Shown: positions 433 through 45,374 of the stretch, in pieces | Layout of the letters: each line of letters begins with the position of its first letter | Numbering within the stretch: the first letter of the stretch is position 1 | DNA from: Thermincola carboxydiphila | GTDB lineage: Bacteria; Bacillota; Thermincolia; Thermincolales; UBA2595 | DNA length: 64,000 bases | Assembly: GCA_016841725.1 (NCBI GenBank) | Contig: JAENYP010000004.1 | Span: forward strand, 1-64,000 | Reading direction: 5' to 3' | The notes under the pieces: model-generated | Databases searched by the model: none | What the model was told of the DNA's origin: nothing | What the model saw: only the letters and a program-made list of their open reading frames with translations | Translations under genes and position numbers: made by a program

Positions 433-1665
433 TTATTTCCCGACGAGTTTCCTTGTTACTTCTTTTATCTTTTCATAATCCACCGGTGTCTTTACCCGGG
501 CGACACCTGATTCCACTGCTGCCCTGGCAACAGCTGCAGCAACCTCAGGAGCTACTCTCGGGTCAAAAGCCCTGGGTAAGATATAATCCCTCCGTCTTTC
601 ATCATCACCAATTAAGCCTGCAATAGCATATGATGCGGCTACCTTCATTTCCTCATTTATATCAGATGCACGCACTTCAAGGGCACCCCTGAATATTCCC
701 GGAAATGCCAGCACATTATTGACCTGGTTGGCATAATCAGATCGCCCTGTACCTACCACAGCCGCCCCTGCCTCCAAAGCCTCATCCGGGTTTATTTCCG
801 GTACCGGATTGGCCATTGCAAAGACTATCGGGTCAGTGTTCATTAAAGCAACCATTTCTTTCGTCAAAACACCCGGAGCAGAAACACCGATAAATACATC
901 TGCCCCTTTAATGGCATCAGTCAGTGTTCCCCTGATTTTGTCCCGGTTAGTTACCTCAGCCATTTTAGTCTGGGCCGGATTCATCCATTCCTCACCCTCA
1001 CAGACTACCCCGAAGCGGTCAACAAGAACCCCATTTTTTAAACCTGCCTGAAGCAGCAGTTTTGTAATGGCAATACCGGCTGAGCCTGCTCCGTTAAGGA
1101 CTAGCTTTATTTCATCCAGCTTCTTGTTGACGACTCTCAAAGCATTAACCAGGGCTGCCAGGACCACCACCGCCGTACCGTGCTGATCATCATGGAATAT
1201 TGGGATACTGGTTTCCTTCTTTAACCTGGCCTCTATCTCAAAACACCTGGGCGCTGATATGTCTTCCAGGTTAACTCCGCCAAAGCTTGGCTCCAGGGCT
1301 TTGACCACCCTGACGATTTCATCTACATCTTTTGTTGCAATACAAAGTGGAAAGGCATCCACTCCGGCAAATTTTTTGAAAAGAACGCATTTGCCTTCCA
1401 TAACCGGCATAGCCGCAAGGGGCCCGATATCTCCAAGCCCGAGAACAGCAGTACCGTCAGAAATTACAGCTACCATATTACCCCGCGCAGTATATTCATA
1501 TACTGCATCCGGGTTTTGATGGATAACCTTACAGGGTTCTGCAACCCCGGGTGTATATGCCAGGCTTAAAGCATCCATGCTGTCAACTTCAACTTTACTG
1601 GTCACCTCAATTTTCCCAACCAGTTCCTTATGCAGTTGCAGCGCCCTTTCCTTAAGGTCACTCAC
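433..1665 (-). CDS. NAD(P)-dependent malic enzyme (oxaloacetate-decarboxylating)
   Basis: This 410-residue protein matches short bacterial malic enzymes, which convert malate to pyruvate, CO2 and NAD(P)H. Visible signatures are the N-terminal [11 protein letters not shown] segment, the HDDQHGTA region near residue 160 with metal and catalytic residues, and a Rossmann motif GAGSAGIA near residue 195. I start it at GTG 1665, 9 nt after a GGGGG ribosome-binding site; a TTG two codons earlier sits too close to that site. It is the last gene of the fumarase-sdh operon. It delivers the carbon of propionate as pyruvate, or runs in reverse during fermentation. Coenzyme preference cannot be read from the sequence. 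Confidence 0.93.
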
Positions 1666-1680
1666 TTTCAACCGCCCCCT

Positions 1681-2427
1681 TTATTTTCTGAACCAATTCT
1701 TGATTCCGTGTATTGTGGTATCCCTGTTCAATTGAGCTATGGCTGTAGTCAGGGGAATGTTTTTTGGGCATGCCTCAATGCAGTTTTGGGAATTGCCACA
1801 ATCTGTGATACCCCCTTCTCCCATAATCGTTTCCATACGCTCTTCCTGGGTCATGGCTCCAATGGGGTGTTTGTTGAAACGCAATACCTGGGCAAGAGGC
1901 GCCGGCCCAATAAAGCTTGACCTGGAATTAAAGTTTGGACATGCTTCATAACAGCAGCCACAGGTCATACAGCGGGAAATTTCGTACATCCATCGCCTTT
2001 CCCGTTCCGGTACCCGGGGACCTGGTCCCAGATCAAAAGCTCCGTCAATATTGACCCAGGCCTTGACCTTTTTAAGATGTTCAAAAAGGAGTTCCCGGTC
2101 AACCTTGAGATCACGTACTACCGGAAACTTACTCAATGGTTCCAGTGTAATCGGCTGTGGCATTTTATCAATTAATGCACTGCAGGCCTGTCTGACATTA
2201 CCGTTAATAATCATTGTGCAGGCCCCGCACACCTCTTCCAGGCACGAACAATCCCAGACTACTGGTGTAGTTTTTTCGCCGTTTGCATTGACCGGTTTTT
2301 TCCGAATTTCCATTAATACCGATAATACGTTCATATTTGGCTTATATGGAACTTTAAATTCTTCCCACCTGGGGAAATCCCTGCTGCCGTTTTGTCTTTT
2401 TATTTTGAGGTGAATATAATCAAGCAT
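1681..2427 (-). CDS. sdhB: Succinate dehydrogenase/fumarate reductase iron-sulfur subunit
   Basis: The 248-residue electron-transfer subunit carries a [2Fe-2S] plant-ferredoxin-type domain with the cluster cysteines around CSCLEEVCGAC. A C-terminal ferredoxin domain has CMTCGCCYEACPNF and CGNSQNCIEACP for the [4Fe-4S] and [3Fe-4S] clusters. It passes electrons between the SdhA flavin and the SdhC hemes. The start at 2427 follows a GGGGGG ribosome-binding site and lies 13 nt after sdhA. A longer in-frame reading back to 2682 only overlaps sdhA and is not the protein. The operon order sdhC-sdhA-sdhB is that of the Bacillus-type three-subunit enzyme. Confidence 0.95.
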   Translation of the reverse strand: MLDYIHLKIKRQNGSRDFPRWEEFKVPYKPNMNVLSVLMEIRKKPVNANGEKTTPVVWDCSCLEEVCGACTMIINGNVRQACSALIDKMPQPITLEPLSKFPVVRDLKVDRELLFEHLKKVKAWVNIDGAFDLGPGPRVPERERRWMYEISRCMTCGCCYEACPNFNSRSSFIGPAPLAQVLRFNKHPIGAMTQEERMETIMGEGGITDCGNSQNCIEACPKNIPLTTAIAQLNRDTTIHGIKNWFRK

Positions 2428-2440
2428 ATTAATCCCCCCA

Positions 2441-4168
2441 TCAATCATATTTTCTGGCCCTGGGTTTAAGCAGCGAAACATCCACATCTTCATACTCAAA
2501 CCTGGGTCCGGATTCAGTCCAGTATGCTTTGGTTGTTTTGAGCCACTGGTCGTCATTACGTTCAGGATAATCGGGCATATAGTGTGAACCCCTGCTTTCC
2601 TTCCTGTTAAATGCTCCCAAAGTAATAACTCTGGCCAGTTGAAGCATATTCCATAACTGCCGGACAAACGGCACAACCTCATTGGCCCAGCGGCCTGTAT
2701 CGTGGATACCGATATTTTTAAACCGCTCCATCAATTCCTGTAACTTATTATCACCCCTCATCAGGCTCTTTTCATACCTGACAACGCCTACATCTGTTAT
2801 CATGACTTCGCCCAGTTCCTCATGGATAACATAAGGGTTTTCAATCCCATCCATACGATAGATTGATTCCGCAATATCCTTTTGGCGGGTCAATTCCCTG
2901 TCAAATACCGACTGGGGGACATCTGCCGCCGACTTCTTCATCCCCTTCATGTATTTGATTGCATTGGGCCCGCAAATATAGCCACTGTAAGACGCCGACA
3001 ACAGGGAATTGGCTCCCAGGCGGTTGGCCCCGTGGTACATATAATCACACTCTCCGGCTGCAAACAGGCCGGGAATATCGGTCATGTGGTTAGAGTCGAC
3101 ATACATCCCACCCATAAAATAGTGCGGTGCCGGGAAGATCTTCATTGGTACCTTGACAGGATCCTCTCCATAGAAATTGCGGTATATCTCCATAATCCCG
3201 CCAAGGCGCACCTCCAGGAATTCGGGGTCTTTATGGGTCAGGTCCAGGTAAACCTGGTTTTTACCATCAACCCCTAGTCCCATCTCGACACACACCTTGT
3301 AGATAGCCCTTGAGGCAATATCCCTTGGCACCAGATTACCATAGGCCGGATACCACTCCTCCAGAAAATACCATGGCTTGCCGTCTTTATAGGTCCAGAT
3401 ACGCCCTCCTTCACCCCTTGATGCCTCAGACATCAACCTAAGCTTATCATCACCCGGCATTGCAGTTGGGTGAAACTGTACAAACTCGCCATTAGCAAAA
3501 GACACTCCTTGCTGATACACCGCTCCGGCAGCGCTCCCGGTACAGATTACCGAATTGGTGCTTTTACCATATATCATGCCTTCTCCGCCGGTTGCCAGAA
3601 TTACTGCATCTGCAGGAAATGCATGTATTTCCATTGAATTAAGGTCCTGTGCGGTTATGCCGCGGCATAATCCCTCATCATCAATAACTGCAGAAAGAAA
3701 CTCCCAGCCAATATATTCCTTGACCTTACCGGCCGCGACCCACTTTCTGACCTGTTCATCAAGAGCATAAAGCAGCTGTTGGCCTGTAGTCGCTCCGGCA
3801 AAGGCAGTTCTCCGATTTTTGACACCACCAAACATCCTTAGATCAATAAAACCCTCAGAAGTCCTGTTAAACATCACTCCCATGCGGTCAAAAGCGTAAA
3901 TCAATCCCGGAGCCGCTTCCACCATCCCTTTAACCGGTGTCTGGTTGGCCAGGAAATCCCCTCCGACAATGGTATCCTCAAAGTGCTGCTGAATACTGTC
4001 ATTTTCACCTTTGGTATTCAGAGCCGCATTAATTCCTCCCTGAGCACAAATGGAGTGCGAACGTTTAAACGGCACCAGGGAAAAAGCGTCTACTTCAGCC
4101 CCTGCTTCTGCAGCCTTTATTATACTCAGAAGGCCTGCCAGCCCACCGCCGATAACAATGACTTTCAT
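2441..4168 (-). CDS. sdhA: Succinate dehydrogenase/fumarate reductase flavoprotein subunit
   Basis: The 575-residue catalytic subunit interconverts succinate and fumarate at the cytoplasmic membrane face. The FAD-binding GGGLAG motif is at residues 8-13. The HSICAQGGINAA segment near residue 38 contains the expected covalent-flavin histidine. QFHPTA near residue 240 and the SEASRGEGG loop carry active-site residues, and the GECDYMYHGANRLGANSL region lies near residue 370. Length and motifs fit the Bacillus/Wolinella class. In a propionate oxidiser this step works energetically uphill against menaquinone. Confidence 0.96.
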   Translation of the reverse strand: MKVIVIGGGLAGLLSIIKAAEAGAEVDAFSLVPFKRSHSICAQGGINAALNTKGENDSIQQHFEDTIVGGDFLANQTPVKGMVEAAPGLIYAFDRMGVMFNRTSEGFIDLRMFGGVKNRRTAFAGATTGQQLLYALDEQVRKWVAAGKVKEYIGWEFLSAVIDDEGLCRGITAQDLNSMEIHAFPADAVILATGGEGMIYGKSTNSVICTGSAAGAVYQQGVSFANGEFVQFHPTAMPGDDKLRLMSEASRGEGGRIWTYKDGKPWYFLEEWYPAYGNLVPRDIASRAIYKVCVEMGLGVDGKNQVYLDLTHKDPEFLEVRLGGIMEIYRNFYGEDPVKVPMKIFPAPHYFMGGMYVDSNHMTDIPGLFAAGECDYMYHGANRLGANSLLSASYSGYICGPNAIKYMKGMKKSAADVPQSVFDRELTRQKDIAESIYRMDGIENPYVIHEELGEVMITDVGVVRYEKSLMRGDNKLQELMERFKNIGIHDTGRWANEVVPFVRQLWNMLQLARVITLGAFNRKESRGSHYMPDYPERNDDQWLKTTKAYWTESGPRFEYEDVDVSLLKPRARKYD

Positions 4169-4184
4169 GTAAATACACTCCCTT

Positions 4185-4802
4185 CTACCCTGCTAAAGCT
4201 ATTAATCCAACAGTGCCGGCGCCGGACATTATCAAAAACAATGCTGTACATACATTCTGTAAAATCTTTTGCGACCTTGGCCCCAAAGTAATTCCCCAAC
4301 TGATGGCAAAGGTGTAAATCCCGTTTGAAAAGTGAAACACTGCAGCCAACAACCCCACTAAATATATAATGAAGAAAAGCGGTTGAGATAAAATGCCGTT
4401 CATAAACTCGTATGATATTTCTATACCTGATATTGCTCTGGCAATCCTCGCTGTATAGGCATGGTATATCACAAACAGGAAGGTAACGATTGCCGTTATC
4501 CGCTGCAGGTAAAACATGTAGTTGCGGAAATACTTATAATGAAGCACATTATTCTTTGAAAGATATACATAATATAGACCTAATATAGTATGGAATGCCA
4601 GGGGTATTGCTATCAGCAGAATTTCAATGGGAACCAGAAAGGGAATCTGCTGGAATGCTTCAATTTTTTGATTGTAATATTCCGGTCCTTTCAGGGCAAA
4701 GGAGTTTGTTATCAGATGTTCCAGCAGGAAAACCCCTATCGGAATAATTCCAGTGAAGGAATGTATTTTTCTTTCAAGAAAATTACCGGTGATAAATCCC
4801 AT
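4185..4802 (-). CDS. sdhC: Succinate dehydrogenase cytochrome b subunit, diheme
   Basis: This 205-residue membrane anchor has five hydrophobic helices. Histidines at 29, 71, 114 and 157 match in spacing the four heme ligands known for Bacillus subtilis SdhC (28, 70, 113, 155), so two b hemes are expected, linking SdhB to menaquinone. The start at 4802 lies 9 nt after AGGAGG. An ATG at 4811 abuts that site and the frame upstream overlaps the fumarase gene, so both are rejected. Diheme anchors of this type are associated with coupling to the membrane potential. Confidence 0.93.
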   Translation of the reverse strand: MGFITGNFLERKIHSFTGIIPIGVFLLEHLITNSFALKGPEYYNQKIEAFQQIPFLVPIEILLIAIPLAFHTILGLYYVYLSKNNVLHYKYFRNYMFYLQRITAIVTFLFVIYHAYTARIARAISGIEISYEFMNGILSQPLFFIIYLVGLLAAVFHFSNGIYTFAISWGITLGPRSQKILQNVCTALFLIMSGAGTVGLIALAG

Positions 4803-4833
4803 AACCCACATCCTCCTTTCGGGAAATGTATTT

Positions 4834-5388
4834 TTATCCGCCCTGGTACTGTTCACGGCCCATATTGTACATATCTCCCCCATGGGCATCATTAACGACA
4901 ATCACCGGGAAGTTTTCGACCTCCAACCGGTATATTGCTTCCGGACCCAGCTCAGGATAAGCAACAACTTCTGATTTGATGATGCGTTTGGAAATAAGGG
5001 CAGCCGCCCCTCCTGTAGCTGCGAAGTAAATTGCTTTGTTTTTTTCGATGGAATCGAGCACTTCCCGGGAACGCAGGCCCTTGCCAATCATACCCTTTAA
5101 ACCAAGGTCCAACAGTGCCGGTGTGTACGCATCCATACGCCCGCTGGTTGTGGGTCCCGCAGAACCAATTACCTGTCCCGGCCTGGCCGGAGAAGGTCCC
5201 ACATAATATATTATCTGGCCTTCGAGATCCACAGGCAGCTCTTTGCCTTCCTGTATCAATTCAAATAGTTTTTTATGCGCCGCATCCCTGCCTGTATAAA
5301 CTATGCCATTAAGATACACCAGGTCTCCCGCTTTTAGTTTTTCAGTCATCTCATCATTCAAAGGCGCTGCCACTGTATATTCAGCCAA
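4834..5388 (-). CDS. Class I fumarase beta subunit (C-terminal domain)
   Basis: This 184-residue protein matches the C-terminal half of iron-sulfur class I fumarases, with the GPTTSGRMD motif near residue 74 and a VNDAHGGD segment near the end. It pairs with the alpha subunit encoded 15 nt upstream to interconvert fumarate and malate. The start is TTG 5388, after a GAGGGTGG ribosome-binding site. The split two-gene form is usual in anaerobic clostridia and archaea. Confidence 0.92.
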   Translation of the reverse strand: MAEYTVAAPLNDEMTEKLKAGDLVYLNGIVYTGRDAAHKKLFELIQEGKELPVDLEGQIIYYVGPSPARPGQVIGSAGPTTSGRMDAYTPALLDLGLKGMIGKGLRSREVLDSIEKNKAIYFAATGGAAALISKRIIKSEVVAYPELGPEAIYRLEVENFPVIVVNDAHGGDMYNMGREQYQGG

Positions 5389-27471: not shown

Positions 27472-27545
27472 TAAAAAAAGCCCTCGCCCCACAACGGGAC
27501 GAAAGCCTTCACTTCCGCGATACCACCCGGATTGTTACAACCGTT
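27472..27545 (-). promoter_or_regulatory. Second (gene-proximal) T-box/antiterminator-terminator module
   Basis: The T-box core GGGTGGTATCGCGG (27515-27528) is followed by a GC-rich terminator stem (27480-27509) and a T7 run. It duplicates the module at 27588-27640 but has no stem I of its own that I can find. Confidence 0.75.
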
Positions 27546-27587
27546 ATTTCCAAAATTTGAGCCACCGCGTTTTTATGAATAGAAAGC

Positions 27588-27882
27588 AAAAAAGCCTTCA
27601 TCCATAAAGGGACGAAAGCCTGGTTCCGCGATACCACCCAATTTGGTTACAACTGTAACCCGCTCATTGCAGGTACGAGATTCGGCTGCCGGGTGCCGGC
27701 TGCTTATCTGATACCCTCTTCCTGATAACGGTGGAGTTCCGGCCTGGTCTACTCACGATTAAATAATCTTTTCAACCGACAGCTCGGGAGGGAATTTGGG
27801 CCTGACCATATCTTAAGGGGCTTTCAGTCCATGGCCCCTCTTCCCTGTCAAGACAGGTACTCAGCTTACTTATCTCCGTCAA
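27588..27882 (-). promoter_or_regulatory. T-box riboswitch, phenylalanine-type specifier
   Basis: A complete T-box leader is present: stem I region from about 27882, a candidate specifier codon UUC (complement at 27792-27794), the conserved CACCGTTA segment near 27730, the T-box core GGGTGGTATCGCGG (27626-27639) and a terminator with T6 (27588-27622). Uncharged tRNA-Phe should promote readthrough into aroF-pheA. UUC is read by position relative to the conserved flanks, not by modelling. Confidence 0.85.
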
Positions 27883-35456: not shown

Positions 35457-35706
35457 TACGATAACCTCCTCTCTTTATTACGGTTATCATAACAGTTAAA
35501 GATTTGAATCCCATTGATACTTCATTAAAATTAGATTAAAATTCATGTTTCATTATAATTTCCTTATCTCATCTTGTCAATTACCGGAAACCAAATATTG
35601 GATTTCTGACCACGCCAGCTCCAAGTCAATGGAGATAGAAGGGGAAAACCACCGGTGTGTCGAAAAAAGTAAACTTAATCATTGCCTTAAAGGAGTTGAA
35701 GAGAAT

Positions 35707-38349
35707 TTGCTAAGCCCGATACTAAAAACAAAACTATTTTTACCGGCATCAAGGCCCAATTCGGTCTCTCGCTCCTTATTGATTCGCAAAATCTCTGAAG
35801 GGATAGAACAGGGAGGGAAACTTACACTGGTTTCTGCCCCGGCGGGGTATGGCAAAACAACATTAATTACAGAATGGCTAAAAACCGTTAACCGTGAGTG
35901 TGCCTGGGTTTCCATGGATACCGGGGACAATGATCCCAAGAGATTCTTCACATATCTGATTGCATCACTAAAGAGCATCCTGGAGGGGTTTGACCAGGAC
36001 CTCAGCAGCCTGATAGAATCCCCACAGCTGCCAACTCCCGAGATTTTAGCAACACTGCTGCTTAACCGATTGGTAAGTATGGATAGCCCGTCAGTTTTGG
36101 CAATAGATGATTATCATGTGATTACTAATGATTATCTGCACCGGACTATAGAATTCATGATTGAGAATTGTCCGCCGTTATTCCATATAATAATTATTTC
36201 GCGTCTCGACCCTCCTCTGCCCCTTGGAAAATGGCGGGTGAGAAGTTTGCTGACAGAGGTCCGGGTAAATGATTTAAGGTTCTCTGACGAAGAGGTGAGG
36301 GCATTTTTTGCTCAGACTATGCAGCTCAGTCTAAAACCGGAACACATTGTTTCCCTTAAGACCAGAACCGAGGGATGGATTGCCGGTCTCCAACTGGCAG
36401 CCCTTTCCCTGCGGGGCAAAGAAGAACAGGGGATAGCGGAGTTTATTGAACGATTTAGGGGAAGCCACAGGTTTGTCATAGACTACCTGTTTGATGAAGT
36501 TTTTCACCTGCAAACAGATGAAGTGAAAGAATTTCTTTGCAGCACAGCTATATTAAACCGGCTGTGTGCTGATTTATGTAATGAATTAACAGACAGAAAA
36601 GACAGTATGAATATCCTGCTAAACCTGGAACAAAACAACCTTTTTCTGATTCCTCTGGATGAAGAGCGTCAATGGTATCGCTATCATCACCTGTTCGCAG
36701 ATTTCCTCCGTACAGAGTTAGAGGCAAAGCAACAAGCAGTTTTACATCAAAAAGCTGCTAAATGGTATGAAAGTAACGGTTATCAAAATGAAGCCATAGA
36801 CCATTCTTTAGCTGCCGGAGATAAAGAAAAAGCGGTCGGCTTAATAAAGAGACAACTCAGTCAGAGCATTATCAGGGGAGACTTATATACTCTGATTGAA
36901 TGGTTGGAAGGTTTAGATGAAAACCTTGTCCGCAAGGACGGGGAGCTTTGTTCAACCAAAGCCTGTGCCCATTTTCTCCTGTCCCAAATTGAACAGGCCT
37001 GTTCTTATGTAAAAGATTTTAAGCAAATAAAAAATGCAGACAGGTTGAGCTTGGGAAGGGTTAAAACACTGGAAGCCTGGCTCGCAAATATTCGCGAAGA
37101 TAAAATGACCATAGACCTGGCAAAGGAGGCTATAGGGCTGATGGGCAATCAGGACCTTGGATTGAAGGTTTTTGCTCTGGTGGCATTGGCTCAGTCTCTG
37201 AGAAGCAGAGGTTATTTGGATAGATCCACTGACGCCTTTAAAGAGGCATTGCAGATTAGCAGGCAGTTCGGATACACCTTATCCATTTGTACCGTAACAA
37301 TGGATTTGGTTTATAATTACTATATCCAGGGCGATTTGCAGTATGCAATTCAATTGTGCCTGGATATGCTGGCGGTTAAGAACACCGAAAACAGGCCTTT
37401 GCCGGCGGCAGGAATTCTTAACATCCCTCTGGCTGCCTTTTATTTTGAGTCTAATCAGATTGAATTGGCAGAAGAAACTGTGCTCAGAGGAATCGAAACC
37501 AGCCGAAAGCTGGCAATGCACAATATCTTCGGCGGAGATGGGGAAAGAACTCTGGCCAAAATCAAATCCTTACAGGGAAGCCATGAAGATGCTTCAGCTA
37601 TAATTCAAAACGCTCTTAATAGCGCCAGATCCGCAGGTTTGCCCATTATTACCCTGAGATTTGAGGCGCTTCTTGCAGAATTCAAACTTGCTGCAGGTGA
37701 TGTACAATGGGTAGAAGATTGGATTAGGAGAAGCGAATTATCCCCAGAGGGTGAGATTACTTCATTAAAAGAACAGTCCTACCTGGTCTTTGTGCGGCTC
37801 CTGATGACCAAAAAACTTTGGCAGAAAGCAGAGGCTCTCCTGGCAAGGCTGGAGAATTTCTCACACAAGGGTCAGAGGAAAGGGCGCCTGGTTAGTATTT
37901 TGGTTCTGCAGGCTATCTTAAGTGGTGCAGTGGGCAATGCAGATGGCGCAAAGATGAAGCTCCGGGAGGCTGTTAATATCGCGGCCCCACATAACTACCG
38001 CCGGTCTTTTCTGCAAGAGGGAGAGCAGGTTCTACACCTGCTGCCTTTAGTACAGGACACTGCTCCGGAGTTCGTTGCCAGCCTGATTGAGGACTTTCAC
38101 CCGGAATTAAACTTAAACCATTTGGTCTCCAGGATTAATACAGCTGGTGGTTTGGCGGAACCCCTCAGTGAAAGGGAGTTAGAAGTTTTAAAGTTAGTTG
38201 CCACCGGGTTGCCAAATACAGAAATTGCCGGAAAGCTCTATATTAGTTTAGGAACTGTCAAATGGCACACTAACCATATATACGCAAAACTCGGAGTGAA
38301 AAACAGGACCCAGGCTGTCAACAAAGCAAAGGAACTGAAGATTATTTAG
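35707..38349 (+). CDS. LuxR-family (MalT-type, LAL) ATP-dependent regulator
   Basis: The protein has about 880 residues: an N-terminal STAND-type NTPase with Walker A APAGYGKTT, a central helical/TPR-like region, and a C-terminal LuxR helix-turn-helix (LSERELEVLKLVATG ... GTVKWHTNHIYAKLG). I start at TTG 35707, after AAAGGAG; LSPILKTKLFLPASRP then matches the usual LAL beginning. An ATG at 35545 has no ribosome-binding site. It is the first plus-strand gene and probably controls the genes that follow. Confidence 0.88.
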   Translation: MLSPILKTKLFLPASRPNSVSRSLLIRKISEGIEQGGKLTLVSAPAGYGKTTLITEWLKTVNRECAWVSMDTGDNDPKRFFTYLIASLKSILEGFDQDLSSLIESPQLPTPEILATLLLNRLVSMDSPSVLAIDDYHVITNDYLHRTIEFMIENCPPLFHIIIISRLDPPLPLGKWRVRSLLTEVRVNDLRFSDEEVRAFFAQTMQLSLKPEHIVSLKTRTEGWIAGLQLAALSLRGKEEQGIAEFIERFRGSHRFVIDYLFDEVFHLQTDEVKEFLCSTAILNRLCADLCNELTDRKDSMNILLNLEQNNLFLIPLDEERQWYRYHHLFADFLRTELEAKQQAVLHQKAAKWYESNGYQNEAIDHSLAAGDKEKAVGLIKRQLSQSIIRGDLYTLIEWLEGLDENLVRKDGELCSTKACAHFLLSQIEQACSYVKDFKQIKNADRLSLGRVKTLEAWLANIREDKMTIDLAKEAIGLMGNQDLGLKVFALVALAQSLRSRGYLDRSTDAFKEALQISRQFGYTLSICTVTMDLVYNYYIQGDLQYAIQLCLDMLAVKNTENRPLPAAGILNIPLAAFYFESNQIELAEETVLRGIETSRKLAMHNIFGGDGERTLAKIKSLQGSHEDASAIIQNALNSARSAGLPIITLRFEALLAEFKLAAGDVQWVEDWIRRSELSPEGEITSLKEQSYLVFVRLLMTKKLWQKAEALLARLENFSHKGQRKGRLVSILVLQAILSGAVGNADGAKMKLREAVNIAAPHNYRRSFLQEGEQVLHLLPLVQDTAPEFVASLIEDFHPELNLNHLVSRINTAGGLAEPLSERELEVLKLVATGLPNTEIAGKLYISLGTVKWHTNHIYAKLGVKNRTQAVNKAKELKII

Positions 38350-38511: not shown

Positions 38512-38718
38512 ATGAACTATGAAATTGTTATACTCGGCCATATCGATAAACGGCGGCTTCGAGAGTTAGATGGAATTGAACTGGAGTTTTTACCTGGTGG
38601 GGAAACCAAAATTACGTGCCGAGAGTTTGACCAGGCTTCACTGCATGCCATAATAAACCGAATCTATAATCTGGGACTAACTCTAAAAGTTGTTAAGGAA
38701 GTTGCACTGGATAAATGA
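38512..38718 (+). CDS. Small conserved protein associated with LAL regulators
   Basis: The 68-residue soluble protein has an initial YEIVILGHID segment and a C-terminal DQASLHAIINRIYNLGLTL segment. From memory, similar small proteins with a GHxD start and DQAALHGxLxRIRDLGL end lie beside LAL regulators in Actinobacteria and Chloroflexi, function unknown. A strong ribosome-binding site (GAGGAGGAGG) precedes the ATG. Confidence 0.75.
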   Translation: MNYEIVILGHIDKRRLRELDGIELEFLPGGETKITCREFDQASLHAIINRIYNLGLTLKVVKEVALDK

Positions 38719-38782
38719 GAAAAATGATATCCCGGCAACACACAGTTAGCAGGTAAATACAAATGGAAATGGAGGAAAAGAA

Positions 38783-38968
38783 ATGTTCTGGTGGATTAGT
38801 GCTTTTATTGTTTGGTTAGTTTCAGCTGCTTGAATTTTCTCTATTCTTGCGGGCGTGTTCCGCGGCAAAACTGCTGCATTCAGCGGGAAGGTATTACCTT
38901 GGTACGGTTTTCATGGAATTACAGCTATTTTGGCTGTTTTCCTGATGTTAATTGCTCAAAGATCTTAA
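38783..38968 (+). CDS. Small membrane protein with in-frame UGA (putative selenoprotein) 1
   Basis: The frame runs from ATG 38783 (GGAGG, 7-nt spacing) to TAA 38966 and is interrupted only by TGA at codon 17 (38831-38833). Read through, it gives a 61-residue protein with two membrane helices; the UGA falls inside the first (LVSAA-U-IFSILAG). A hairpin follows with loop GCGTGTT at positions 20-26 after the UGA, as expected for a bacterial SECIS. A TGG-to-TGA nonsense mutation is the main alternative. No homolog is recognised. Confidence 0.6.
38844..38870 (+). promoter_or_regulatory. SECIS-like hairpin 1
   Basis: Stem TTGCGG (38847-38852) pairs with CCGCGG (38860-38865), with two G-U pairs. 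The 7-nt loop GCGTGTT begins 20 nt after the UGA, the position where the E. coli fdhF SECIS presents its apical loop. Confidence 0.5.
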
Positions 38969-38984
38969 TAAGGAGGAAGCCGCT

Positions 38985-39188
38985 TTGTTGAAAATTCTTG
39001 GTTATTTATTACTGTCAATTGGTCTTGTCTGAGTTATTTGGATAATGGGAGGGGTCTTCTCCCATACATTTTCCAATATAAATGAACTCTGGGGCGCCTT
39101 TGCTTTCCATACTGTCAGCATGATTCTTGGAACAGCCTGTGTTGCCCGGTCTGTCAAGTCAAAAAGCTCAAAAGCGATTAATCGATAG
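38985..39188 (+). CDS. Small membrane protein with in-frame UGA (putative selenoprotein) 2
   Basis: The frame runs from TTG 38985 (AGGAGG, 8-nt spacing) to TAG 39186 with one TGA at codon 16 (39030-39032). The product would be 67 residues with two membrane helices; the UGA is in the first (SIGLV-U-VIWIMGG), at nearly the same place as in the preceding gene. The second helix contains WGAFAFHTVSMILG. A 7-bp hairpin with loop GGGTCTT and an outer 5-bp stem follows, again with the loop at +20 to +26. The alternative is a mutated Trp codon. Confidence 0.62.
39038..39076 (+). promoter_or_regulatory. SECIS-like hairpin 2
   Basis: Inner stem ATGGGAG/CTCCCAT (39045-39051, 39059-39065), loop GGGTCTT containing the GGTCT of the fdhF SECIS loop, and outer stem TTGGA/TCCAA (39038-39042, 39072-39076). 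It starts 5 nt after the UGA. Confidence 0.6.
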
Positions 39189-39202: not shown

Positions 39203-40162
39203 ATGAAAAGAAGAATAATAGCTATGCTAGTGGGTATGTTTTTTGTTTTAACTACTCTGATATGGGTGAAATATCAAAGAGATATGCGAGTATCCTATGA
39301 GCGTGTCCAGGGGAAGAGCAGTATAATCTCTACGCCTTATGGCAATGTTGAATATACTGAGGGTGGAGTTGGCCCTGATGTTTTAGTAATCCATGGAGGC
39401 GGTGGTGGTTATGATCAGGGAGAACTGCTTACCCATACTGTATTGGGTGACAAATTTAGATGGATTACTCCCTCGCGTTTTGGCTATCTGGGATCAAGTC
39501 TACCGGAGGGGGCCACTTATGATGATCAGGCTCATGCATATGCAAAGTTGTTAGACCATCTCAAAGTTGAAAGAGCTGCCGTGGTCGGCTTTTCAGCCGG
39601 CGGTCCCTCAGCGCTTCTTTTTGCACTGCTTCACCCTGACCGGGTTTCTTCCCTTACTCTCATTTCAGCCGGGGCTACAAATGTAGCTGAAGAAGCAGGA
39701 AAACAGGGTGAAAAAAAGGGTAAGATGTTATCAAATTTAATGCAAAGAGACTTTCCCTACTGGGTTTCGGTAAACCTGTTTAAGAAACAGATTATGCAGT
39801 TGATGGGGGCCAACAAAGAAGTGATAGCAACCCTCAGCCCGGAACAAATAAAAGTAATGGATCAAGTCATTGATTATATGAACCCTGCTGCGCTGCGCAA
39901 GTCAGGTGCTGCTTTTGATCACTACGCTGCGTTACCTAATGAGCGAATTGCCGGAATCCGCACACCGACTCTGGTCGTGCATGCTGAAGATGACACTTTA
40001 CAGCCGTATCAGAATGCTGTCTTTACATCTTCCACCATTCCGGGTGCCCGCTTGCTCAGTTTCGAAAATGGTGGGCATTTCCTTGTGGCCGTTGAACAGT
40101 CTACAGTCAGCAGGGAGGTATATATGCACATTTCTGATTCAGTATTTGAAACTAAAGAATAA
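39203..40162 (+). CDS. Membrane-anchored alpha/beta hydrolase
   Basis: The 319-residue protein has an N-terminal signal-anchor helix (residues 4-22) and a hydrolase fold with oxyanion segment VIHGGGGGYDQ near 72. The nucleophile elbow GFSAGG places Ser near residue 131; Asp in HAEDDTLQPYQ and His in ENGGHFLVAVE complete the triad. The substrate is unknown. It is the last gene of the plus-strand cluster, 14 nt after the second UGA-containing gene. Confidence 0.88.
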   Translation: MKRRIIAMLVGMFFVLTTLIWVKYQRDMRVSYERVQGKSSIISTPYGNVEYTEGGVGPDVLVIHGGGGGYDQGELLTHTVLGDKFRWITPSRFGYLGSSLPEGATYDDQAHAYAKLLDHLKVERAAVVGFSAGGPSALLFALLHPDRVSSLTLISAGATNVAEEAGKQGEKKGKMLSNLMQRDFPYWVSVNLFKKQIMQLMGANKEVIATLSPEQIKVMDQVIDYMNPAALRKSGAAFDHYAALPNERIAGIRTPTLVVHAEDDTLQPYQNAVFTSSTIPGARLLSFENGGHFLVAVEQSTVSREVYMHISDSVFETKE

Positions 40163-42301: not shown

Positions 42302-43711
42302 TCACCCTCCCGCAGCCAAATTCCAGAATAGCTCCTGTAGGACTGTTTTGCTTACCGTGCATGATATTTCACGCACATATTCTTTTAATTCATTGGGAGC
42401 TTTGGGATTTCCCTCTATAGAAAAAATCCCTATAGGACATCCCCCTCCGCAAAGGTATCTGTAACTACATTCCCGGCATTTCTTTCTATTATCGACGTTA
42501 ACGATATCAAGCATTCTTGCCAGCACATTTTTTCTGGGGAAATCATCCATTAGAATATTGCCCACTTCATACTGTTTGTTTCCGACCAGATAAATGCAGG
42601 AATATATCTCGCCGTTGCTGGTAATAACAGGAGTATTTCCAATGGGAGCACCACACCCCCAGGGGTTTTTAAATGAAGGCTGAAGACGGTGATTATATTC
42701 ATTGAAGGGGTAAAGGCTTGTAATTGGCCAAATACCTGAATGAAATACTTCTCTAAGGCCTTCTGCATATTTTTGGGGTGACGGGCACAACTCAAGGTCC
42801 AGCAGCTTAATATCTGAATCTACGGGATTTAAGGGAACAAAAGCGCAGCCAGCTGCCCCAAGCTCCTGATGCGTTTTCGCCACATCCATCATTAAGGAAT
42901 CAGTATAGCTGGTCACGGTTGCCCGTAAGGAAACTTTAAGACCGGCTTTGATAAGTTTTTCAACGTTACCTGCGGTTGTCCGGAAGCTTCCTTGGCCATT
43001 AATAAAAGGCCGTGTTTTGTTGTGAATTTCTTCAGGTCCATCAATATCAACCAAGAATGTGATGTTATTTTGCAAAGCAACTTCAATAAGGTCATCAGGG
43101 AATAATGTAAGATTGGTTGTCAGGTGATAAGCAATTTGCTTGCCGGGATTTCTAGGAATCAGGTTATTATTGCAATAATCAATTACCTTTTTTGCTAGAT
43201 TCCAATTCATCAGAGGTTCGCCGCCAAAAAATACTATTTCCAATTTGCCAAATTCAGCAATTGAATCAAGTATGTTGTCAAGAGACTTGAACGCAACTTC
43301 CTCTGACATCATTAAAGATTCGTGTTTTTGGTATGTATTCTTTCCGTTAAAACAATAGATACAAGCTTGGTTGCAGCTATGAGTTAATAAGAGATATACA
43401 CTGCGCGAAAACGATAACCTCTCTGCCATTTCATACCCGCAGCACTTTTTTTGTTCTATGGTTTTGCTGGAATCTTCCGGGATTATAAGAAAATGTGCAC
43501 AAAAAAAATCAAATGCCTCCTGTGAGCAAAAATCAGGCAGGCAAGCGGCAGAAATAGGCCCCATTTTTTTTAATTCCGCAAGTAAATCTAGGGCTTGATT
43601 TCCGCCAACAGGAAAATATATTGGGTTCACCTGAACTGCATTGAAAATAATTATTTCTTCTCCGCGTTTGAGGACTTCGATCTCATCAGCAACAACAAAA
43701 TGTGCTTGCAT
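42302..43711 (-). CDS. Radical-SAM/SPASM peptide maturase-like enzyme
   Basis: This 469-residue enzyme has an N-terminal region of about 90 residues that may bind a precursor. The radical-SAM cluster motif CNQACIYC follows near residue 113, with FFGGEPLMN near 170. A SPASM domain has cysteines in NPWGCG, EIYSCIY and CRECSYRYLCGGGCP near 345-430. Such enzymes install thioether or carbon-carbon links in ribosomal peptides; Cys-rich peptide maturases of the CcpM type are the closest class I can think of. It lies 22 nt after the WG-repeat gene, whose C-terminus is the candidate substrate. Confidence 0.9.
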   Translation of the reverse strand: MQAHFVVADEIEVLKRGEEIIIFNAVQVNPIYFPVGGNQALDLLAELKKMGPISAACLPDFCSQEAFDFFCAHFLIIPEDSSKTIEQKKCCGYEMAERLSFSRSVYLLLTHSCNQACIYCFNGKNTYQKHESLMMSEEVAFKSLDNILDSIAEFGKLEIVFFGGEPLMNWNLAKKVIDYCNNNLIPRNPGKQIAYHLTTNLTLFPDDLIEVALQNNITFLVDIDGPEEIHNKTRPFINGQGSFRTTAGNVEKLIKAGLKVSLRATVTSYTDSLMMDVAKTHQELGAAGCAFVPLNPVDSDIKLLDLELCPSPQKYAEGLREVFHSGIWPITSLYPFNEYNHRLQPSFKNPWGCGAPIGNTPVITSNGEIYSCIYLVGNKQYEVGNILMDDFPRKNVLARMLDIVNVDNRKKCRECSYRYLCGGGCPIGIFSIEGNPKAPNELKEYVREISCTVSKTVLQELFWNLAAGG

Positions 43712-43733
43712 AGAGTTTTTCTTCTCCTTTACC

Positions 43734-45374
43734 TTAAACGTAAGTACAGACTGCAGTGCAGCCCATTGTACAGCCCATGGTGCAGCTCCAGTCGCAGGGA
43801 TTGTTTATGGGGCCGACGTTTAAGTCAGGTGCTGATTCTTCTATCGAAATCAACTCCCCCTGCTTGTCATAATATTTTATGAGCATTCCCTTTTTGTCTA
43901 TAAAGGCACTTGTATCACCAACTTTAACAGGTGCCAATCCACCTGAAAAAGCCCCGGCCTCATCAAAGATGGTACTGATCACCATCTTTCCATCGTAGTC
44001 TATATAACCCCATTTATCACCACGTTTAACTGTCGCCAATCCTTCTGAATATTCGACATTTTGTGTTTCTGATTGAGAGCTGCCGTTGTCCTGATTGATA
44101 GGCTCCGGGGATTGTAATTCAGATGTCGGTTCTTCCATAGTTGGTTCTGGTGCTGGCGTCTGTTCTAAAAAGGACAAAACAATATTACCCTTCTTATCAA
44201 TGTACCTCCAGTTGTCCCCAACCTTGACAGCCGCCCAGCCTTCCGAAAATGTAAAGGCATCGTCATATTGGGCACTTATCACCAGCTTTCCCTGCTTATC
44301 TATATAGCCCCATTTATCACCAAGCCTAACTCTGGCCAATCCTTCAAAAAAAGACCAAGAACCATCATCAAACTGAGCATTGATCACCATATTCCCCTTC
44401 TTGTCTATATACCCCCATTTATCACCACTTTTAACCGCAGCCAAGCCTTCCGAAAAAGACCAGGAACCTTCATCAAACTGGGTGCTTATGACCATATTTC
44501 CCTTCTTGTCTATATAGCCACATTTATCACCACGTTGAACTACTGCCAGCCCTTCAGCAAAAGAACCGGCCCAATCAAACTGAGCACTTATCACCATTTT
44601 CCCCTTCTTGTCTACATACCCATATTTATCACCACTTTTAACCGCAGCCAAGCCTTCCGAAAAAAGAGAGGCATAATCAAACTGGATACCTATCACCAGA
44701 TTCCCCTTCTTATCTATATAGCCAAATTTATCACCACGTTTAACCGCGGCCAATCCTTCCGAAAAAGCCCAGGAACCATCATCAAACTGGGCGCTTATGA
44801 CCATATTTCCCTTCTTGTCTATATAGCCATAATTATCCCCATATTGAACTACTGCCAATCCTTCGGAAAAAGACCAGGAACCTTCACCAAACTCGGCACT
44901 TATGACCATATTTCCCTTCTTATCTATATAGCCATATTTATCACCGAGTTTAACTCTGGCCAAGCCTTCGGAAAAAGGCCAAGTATTATCAAACTGGGCA
45001 CTTATGACCATATTCCCCTTCTTATCTATATAGCCATATTTATCACCACGTCTAAACATTGCCAACCCTTCCGAAAAAGAACCGGCAAAATCAACCGCGA
45101 ATTTCTCTTTAGCATTTTGGGTAGCAAAAAGAGAGTAACCCCCGCCCTGATTTTTTGAGCCAGGTTCCAGGGAACACCCATAAAGAGATATTCCGATTAT
45201 GCCTATGCCTATCAAACCTGTGGTTACCAGTGTTTTCGTTGATACTGAGTTGAAATTTGCTGTAATAATCAAACATTTTCTTGGCGTATTGTCTTTGGTC
45301 ACTATGGTGCACTTTTTCTGGCAATCGGTTCCTTCTCCAGAGACTTTTTGTCCTTCTGAATTCTGACTATCCAT
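43734..45374 (-). CDS. WG-repeat protein with C-terminal CX3 repeat tail
   Basis: The 546-residue protein has a Cys-containing N-terminus, a hydrophobic helix (about 49-68, ending LYGC) and eleven WG-type repeats of about 34 residues (FSEGLA..GDKYGYIDKKGNMVISAQF). A Pro/Glu linker separates repeats 9 and 10. The last 20 residues (527-546, DNA 43737-43796) are five CX3 units: CDWS, CTMG, CTMG, CTAV, CTYV. WG repeats are usually extracytoplasmic binding modules. The tail looks like a ribosomal peptide core for the adjacent radical-SAM enzyme. Confidence 0.88.
   Translation of the reverse strand: MDSQNSEGQKVSGEGTDCQKKCTIVTKDNTPRKCLIITANFNSVSTKTLVTTGLIGIGIIGISLYGCSLEPGSKNQGGGYSLFATQNAKEKFAVDFAGSFSEGLAMFRRGDKYGYIDKKGNMVISAQFDNTWPFSEGLARVKLGDKYGYIDKKGNMVISAEFGEGSWSFSEGLAVVQYGDNYGYIDKKGNMVISAQFDDGSWAFSEGLAAVKRGDKFGYIDKKGNLVIGIQFDYASLFSEGLAAVKSGDKYGYVDKKGKMVISAQFDWAGSFAEGLAVVQRGDKCGYIDKKGNMVISTQFDEGSWSFSEGLAAVKSGDKWGYIDKKGNMVINAQFDDGSWSFFEGLARVRLGDKWGYIDKQGKLVISAQYDDAFTFSEGWAAVKVGDNWRYIDKKGNIVLSFLEQTPAPEPTMEEPTSELQSPEPINQDNGSSQSETQNVEYSEGLATVKRGDKWGYIDYDGKMVISTIFDEAGAFSGGLAPVKVGDTSAFIDKKGMLIKYYDKQGELISIEESAPDLNVGPINNPCDWSCTMGCTMGCTAVCTYV

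Follow-up and report, generated by a model that had tools for sequence, protein, structure and literature searches.

Do two adjacent short genes of Thermincola carboxydiphila, each interrupted by a single in-frame UGA, encode a pair of membrane selenoproteins? Both lie on the + strand of the window, by which we mean the whole 64,000-nucleotide stretch of contig JAENYP010000004.1 that was analyzed. Gene A (38783-38968, 61 codons) runs from an ATG at 38783 to a TAA at 38966-38968 and has its UGA at 38831-38833 (+ strand, codon 17), whereas gene B (38985-39188, 67 codons) runs from a TTG at 38985 to a TAG at 39186-39188 and has its UGA at 39030-39032 (+ strand, codon 16). The initial annotation of this DNA, which had proposed selenocysteine insertion, described two frames with proper ends and one UGA in each, and the sequence bears this out: each frame is preceded by a good Shine-Dalgarno sequence, that of gene B (38969-38975, + strand) lying within TAAGGAGGA. 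With both UGAs read as selenocysteine (Sec, U), the products, as judged from their homologues and from AlphaFold2 models, are two-helix membrane proteins of 61 residues for gene A (MFWWISAFIVWLVSAAUIFSILAGVFRGKTAAFSGKVLPWYGFHGITAILAVFLMLIAQRS) and 67 residues for gene B ((M)LKILGYLLLSIGLVUVIWIMGGVFSHTFSNINELWGAFAFHTVSMILGTACVARSVKSKSSKAINR, with the initial TTG taken as Met). The two genes are probably cotranscribed.

The UGAs could in principle be decoded without selenium, as tryptophan or cysteine through a suppressor or a reassigned code, or by plain readthrough, and tryptophan would indeed fit a hydrophobic helix. A code in which UGA has been reassigned should not use it as a stop, but TGA terminates 7 of the 34 open reading frames of at least 200 amino acids in the window, in agreement with the earlier remark that it is a normal stop here. 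A sister Thermincola genome (G001; contig labelled Thermincola ferriacetica) carries A and B at the same locus with 82-84% identity and both UGAs. A motif-pattern scan over 84,980 species genomes, with a pattern that demands a short conserved peptide, gave eight confirmed loci labelled Thermincola, Desulfotomaculaceae, Pelotomaculum, Actinomycetota/Actinomycetes (two), Chloroflexi, Krumholzibacteriota, and Candidatus Aquidulcis (Chloroflexota), and all eight are tandem pairs with both UGAs. A search of 350 Chloroflexota genomes with the A profile identified 8 carriers, each match containing exactly one TGA, and in the 7 carriers that were new the pair was again present with a UGA in both genes. 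Profile searches of 398 genomes from the phylum of the window, 296 from that of the Actinomycetota locus, and 77 from that of the Krumholzibacteriota locus returned known UGA forms only.

The total is 16 distinct tandem pairs, or 32 UGAs (the window, the sister Thermincola, and 14 further loci), spread over the Bacillota, Actinomycetota, Chloroflexota, and Krumholzibacteriota. In alignments of the homologues the UGA occupies the same protein column in 16/16 A and 16/16 B sequences; the A homologues are 33-84% identical (n=16), and both UGAs are retained in all 16 pairs, across the four phyla, even where protein identity falls to 28-38%. A check for homologues with tryptophan or cysteine at this position, suggested with the initial annotation, found UGA in every homologue: no cysteine, tryptophan, or other sense codon occurs at the UGA in the 1,121 genomes scanned with A profiles or among the confirmed hits of the 84,980-species motif scan. 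The absence of any homologue with TGG, TGC, or TGT in this column argues against selenium-free decoding. Metagenome assemblies are the source of most of the homologues. Searches with B alone used only a narrow profile, so that B-only relatives are covered less deeply than those of A.

Other searches added little. When 149 relatives were searched for protein matches to A only, the sister Thermincola gave the one real match, the others (E 0.005-1) being hydrophobic noise. The narrow B profile, run over 348 relatives, added only a B remnant in a third Thermincola; a match in genome G240 and the remaining ones (E 2e-5 to 0.008) came from longer open frames and were judged to be parts of unrelated membrane ORFs. 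Among viral contigs, 27 pattern matches included no relative of the pair.

The genes might also be pseudogenes, or might encode short peptides of 16 and 15 residues that end at the UGAs, the downstream frames being fortuitous. What speaks for this is that the pair can be dispensed with. In the third Thermincola (genome G002; locus L039 on G002:C13), 367 bp between two ATAAATGA repeats (left end point at 38711-38718, + strand, and right repeat at 39078-39085 in the window) have been deleted, which took out all of A together with the first half of B, and a remnant of B is left before the hydrolase gene (window equivalent 38711-39085); the two genes were thus lost together and are not indispensable. 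The intact copies give a different picture, since all 16 pairs have one identical interruption per gene, and pairwise comparisons between relatives gave dN/dS values of 0-0.31 for the part 3' of the UGA. The strongest motifs, YxxHGxxAxL in A and the H and G of helix 2 in B, lie 3' of the UGA, and the FHG and FH motifs are kept across the four phyla. The coding sequence 3' of the UGA is thus, as far as sequence comparison can establish, real and under purifying selection, and we give the pseudogene or short-peptide explanation almost no credence.

The SECIS-like hairpins that follow the UGAs provide evidence of another kind for selenocysteine. In gene A the element UUGCGGG-CGUGU-UCCGCGG lies at 38847-38865 (+ strand), with a core stem formed by nucleotides 19-23 and 29-33 counted from the U of the UGA, and in gene B the element AUGGGAGG-GGUCU-UCUCCCAU, with the apical loop GGUCU, lies at 39045-39065 (+ strand). 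The initial annotation had placed 7-nucleotide loops (GCGTGTT and GGGTCTT) at +20 to +26 after the UGA, exactly as in fdhF. The position was right, but because the outer bases of each 7-nucleotide loop can pair (G.U), the loops are better read as the pentaloops CGUGU in A and GGUCU in B, and the likeness to fdhF is approximate only, the loops of A and B being 2 nucleotides further from the UGA than those of the formate dehydrogenase (FdhA) genes in the same genome.

Loss of the hairpin in related species would have spoken against selenocysteine, and the hairpins are in fact kept across the four phyla. The apical GU falls at nucleotides 25-26 from the U of the UGA in 32/32 elements, with a fixed hairpin offset. 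The B stem of five divergent Chloroflexota is wholly different, GGGAGG/UCUCCC being replaced by CGCGGC/GCCGCG around GGUC at an unchanged offset, while the peptide has gone from GGVFS to AAVAA, and so the RNA element has been kept though the B peptide changed. In 11/11 nondivergent loci, the B stem is frozen in the codons GGA, GGG, and TCC, each of which is a minority choice in its host; multiplied together, the host frequencies come to ~1e-8 in each case, without correction for shared descent. The 7-bp stem of the gene A hairpin in the window stands out against synonymous recoding (p=0.008). Single-sequence folding measured in this way gave modest results overall, with most p values at 0.01-0.2 and weak ones at L052, L056, and L064 A; because folding energy by itself has little power when sequences are taken one at a time, the position of the stem, the freezing of codons, and covariation were used as well. 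Stem covariation in a joint alignment of A and B was 0.433, compared with 0.254 +/- 0.030 after shuffling and at most 0.199 when the stem was slid. The shuffle control mixes two paralogous groups, which inflates the value, and most of the two-sided changes are those between the A and B groups; we therefore treat covariation as supportive and not as independent evidence. The recurrence of both UGAs and both hairpins in 16 independently fetched pairs is more than chance would give.

The host genome has the machinery that selenocysteine insertion requires. All four genes for which a check had been proposed were found: selA adjoins selD, selB is full length (357.7 bits), and selC, the tRNA-Sec gene, scores 71.7 bits. 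The genome also contains four UGA-containing FdhA homologues (L076-L079), one of them on the same contig as selA-selD. Their UGA stands in the context AR(L/I)UHS(A/S)TVAGL, and the apical loop downstream is GGUCU, the pentaloop of gene B, in three of the four and GGGCU in the fourth. Together, the sel genes and the UGA-containing FdhA genes indicate that the organism makes selenoproteins. As in FdhA/FdhF, an in-frame UGA in A and B is followed by a short hairpin with an apical G-U in a genome with selA, selB, selC, and selD; the protein families are unrelated, however, and the Sec of A and B lies in a transmembrane helix without a CxxU or UxxC redox motif. selB is present in all 16 genomes that carry the pair (G000, which is the host, and G001; 7/7 for L050-L056; 8/8 Chloroflexota carriers). 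Within the Chloroflexota this co-occurrence is weak or uninformative evidence, because 271 of the 350 genomes have selB.

With a complete machinery, FdhA genes that contain UGA, and a positioned and selected hairpin 3' of each UGA added to UGA's ordinary use as a stop and the lack of sense-codon homologues, we consider decoding of the UGAs without selenium very improbable. The preference of the initial annotation for selenocysteine insertion over two independent Trp-to-stop mutations is supported, and none of the three outcomes named beforehand as refuting it (tryptophan at the UGA in all relatives, no selB or selC in the genome, loss of the hairpin in related species) was met. We are nearly certain that A and B are a Sec-encoded gene pair, with the reservation that actual insertion of selenocysteine is inferred and has no experimental proof. 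The hairpin just 3' of each UGA would recruit the SelB-Sec-tRNA(Sec) complex, so that selenocysteine is inserted there. This decoding mechanism is already known; the novelty lies in the family to which the proteins belong, in their pairing, and in the apparent lack of cysteine forms.

What the two selenoproteins might look like was approached through AlphaFold2, which predicts a two-helix hairpin for each: A with helices 2-26 and 38-60 (pLDDT 95.6) and B with helices 2-25 and 32-65 (pLDDT 86). The earlier placement of each UGA inside the first membrane helix agrees with these models. In both proteins helix 1 contains a Sec and helix 2 a His, each of them invariant, and an hhalign comparison of A with B (probability 96.3%, E 1.6e-9, 54 columns) sets Sec on Sec and His on His. 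On this profile evidence A and B are distant homologues, with the caution that comparing profiles easily overstates homology when the membrane proteins are short. The loop contains most of the Lys and Arg residues in 16/16 A proteins, whereas in 16/16 B proteins the ends do. The positive-inside rule assigns the parts rich in Lys and Arg to the cytoplasmic side, and it follows from the opposite bias that A and B are likely, as a prediction from charge, to be inserted in opposite orientations, A with a cytoplasmic loop and B with cytoplasmic ends. Sec17 and His44 of A, like Sec16 and His42 of B, are inferred from their position in the modelled helices to lie at similar depth, so that an antiparallel dimer would hold one Sec-His site towards each face, the A site nearer the cytoplasmic face and the B site nearer the outer face. 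The distance matrices of A and B are correlated (r=0.88, 0/5000 permutations), which shared species descent alone can produce. No complex was modelled, and that A and B pair as an antiparallel heterodimer is an inference that we favor without being sure of it. The broader reading, two selenoprotein genes whose homologous two-helix products are oppositely inserted and most likely paired, we hold with high confidence. The pair of tiny membrane selenoproteins foreseen in the initial annotation is therefore supported, while the homology of A and B, their likely opposite orientations, their wide spread, and the apparent absence of cysteine forms had been missed.

Upstream of the pair in the window are a LAL/MalT-type LuxR regulator of 934 amino acids (35545-38349, + strand) and, between it and the pair, a 68-amino-acid ORF of no family (38512-38718, + strand) that is found in three Thermincola genomes, was not seen beside the pair outside Thermincola, and is probably in the same operon. 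An alpha/beta hydrolase of 319 amino acids (39203-40162, + strand) begins 14 bp after gene B and is a probable operon partner in Thermincola. The regulator and the hydrolase, pointed out earlier as flanking the pair, are local neighbors, and neither belongs to the conserved unit. Alpha/beta hydrolases stand beside the pair in Thermincola, L053, and L056, FAD amine-oxidase type genes at L050 and L052, RibD_C/nitroreductase genes at L051 and L054, an ABC-2 permease gene at L055, and a coaBC-like gene nearby at L067-L071. There is thus no common gene context across the compared loci; because the neighbors differ between phyla, the pair itself is the conserved unit, and no conserved neighbor indicates a function for it. 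At one locus (L071, Chloroflexota G393, 1437-4861) the pair directly adjoins two reductive-dehalogenase-like genes, the second of which matches PF13486; these are absent at the other loci.

Two further features of the window are recorded here. At 42302-45374 on the - strand, a 546-amino-acid protein with many WG-type repeats (YGYIDKKGNMVISAQFD) and a short Cys-rich tail (CDWSCTMGCTMGCTAVCTYV) adjoins a radical-SAM/SPASM-like protein (42302-43711), an arrangement that looks like a modified-peptide type. An Rfam match to Burkholderia sRNA 2 (BcKCsr2; 42.9 bits, 27473-27601, - strand) lies just downstream of a T-box leader match, and in a Bacillota genome it is probably due to chance or mis-modelled.

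Known families offer no ready identification of A and B. No credible family was found in Pfam, NCBIfam 20.0, or PHROGs, and nothing significant in the PDB by sequence or by fold. No entry recognizable as theirs stands among the 119 families and subfamilies of prokaryotic selenoproteins inventoried in 2026 (PMC13188914), though only open papers were considered and an unindexed description is not excluded. The TsoA, TsoB, TsoC, TsoX, and TsoY proteins of NCBIfam are likewise small, operon-type, recently listed selenoproteins of unknown function, and none of their models matches A or B at E<=1.

Both proteins could contain Sec and yet not form a joint antiparallel complex; they might then work apart from each other, or serve larger membrane enzymes such as respiratory complexes as small regulators or accessory subunits. 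Proteins of this size are often accessory subunits. Weak, nonsignificant matches to small membrane subunits in the bcc-aa3 supercomplexes of actinobacteria were seen for the B profile (PDB 7qhm_J / 7qho_J, sequence E 0.0086) and for the A model (PDB 6hwh_S, fold E 2.1), and they can be cited for such a role, as can the general tendency of small proteins. Strict pairing in 16/16 loci while the neighbors change, correlated evolution, and opposite charge bias point instead to a mutual partnership, and no gene of a larger complex is a constant neighbor. We regard separate or accessory action as unlikely, while leaving it some room.

A membrane transporter or channel for a metal, metalloid, thiol, or selenium compound, akin to the paired small multidrug resistance (SMR) proteins and using Sec and His as substrate ligands, would also account for a homologous antiparallel pair of tiny proteins. 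SMR pairs share with A and B adjacent homologous genes and an opposite positive-inside bias. They have four helices, however, in place of two, and the Sec and His that are invariant in A and B set the latter apart; no significant match to the SMR family was obtained (a weak SugE match had E=0.024), and A and B lack the conserved membrane Glu and any conserved acidic residue within the helices. Metal transporters with Sec do exist among prokaryotic selenoproteins, namely, MerT-like and SO_0444-type Cu/Zn efflux proteins (PMC13188914). These (PF02411 and NF033936) are membrane proteins with Sec as well, but they carry Cys/Sec motifs (C/SxxU, UxC), whereas A and B have no Cys near the Sec and no Cys relatives that we could find. 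Neither A nor B matches the MerT/MerF mercuric transporter model PF02411 at E<=1, the vicinal Cys/Sec pair is absent, and no other transporter model gave a significant match. A transporter or channel accordingly seems to us improbable, though it is not dismissed.

Returning to the antiparallel heterodimer, its Sec-His sites may perform redox or metal/heme-ligand chemistry in which sulfur cannot replace selenium, for example, by carrying electrons, or a substrate bound to a thiol or metal, from one face of the membrane to the other. Such a transmembrane redox or metal role is inferred and remains tentative. No firmer is the proposal in its full form: an obligate antiparallel heterodimer of A and B, 128 residues in total, would have one Sec-His site within the membrane close to each of its faces and act as a minimal transmembrane selenoenzyme, conveying electrons or a thiol- or metal-bound substrate across the membrane; we offer it as a possibility, and one less likely than not to be right. 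What can be read from the DNA reaches as far as the conserved UGAs and hairpins, the Sec machinery, the pairing, the homology, and the charge bias. If the proposal is true, selenium would be irreplaceable in the heterodimer, which would explain the missing cysteine version.

To our knowledge, nearly all known selenoproteins have cysteine versions. Cysteine homologues are the usual support for selenocysteine insertion and do not define it, and A and B are without any that were found. Published selenoprotein pipelines depend on cysteine homologues, and deep-Sep, according to its authors, may fail to identify correctly those selenoproteins that lack them; A and B are a case of selenoproteins without the cysteine versions on which detection relies (PMC12013277). 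A pair of membrane proteins of 61-67 residues, seemingly selenium-only, always paired, and present in four phyla, suggests that there is an overlooked class of Sec-obligate small proteins, overlooked because standard gene prediction would cut such genes short or miss them. The pair also offers a very small system for asking what selenium, and not sulfur, can do inside a membrane.
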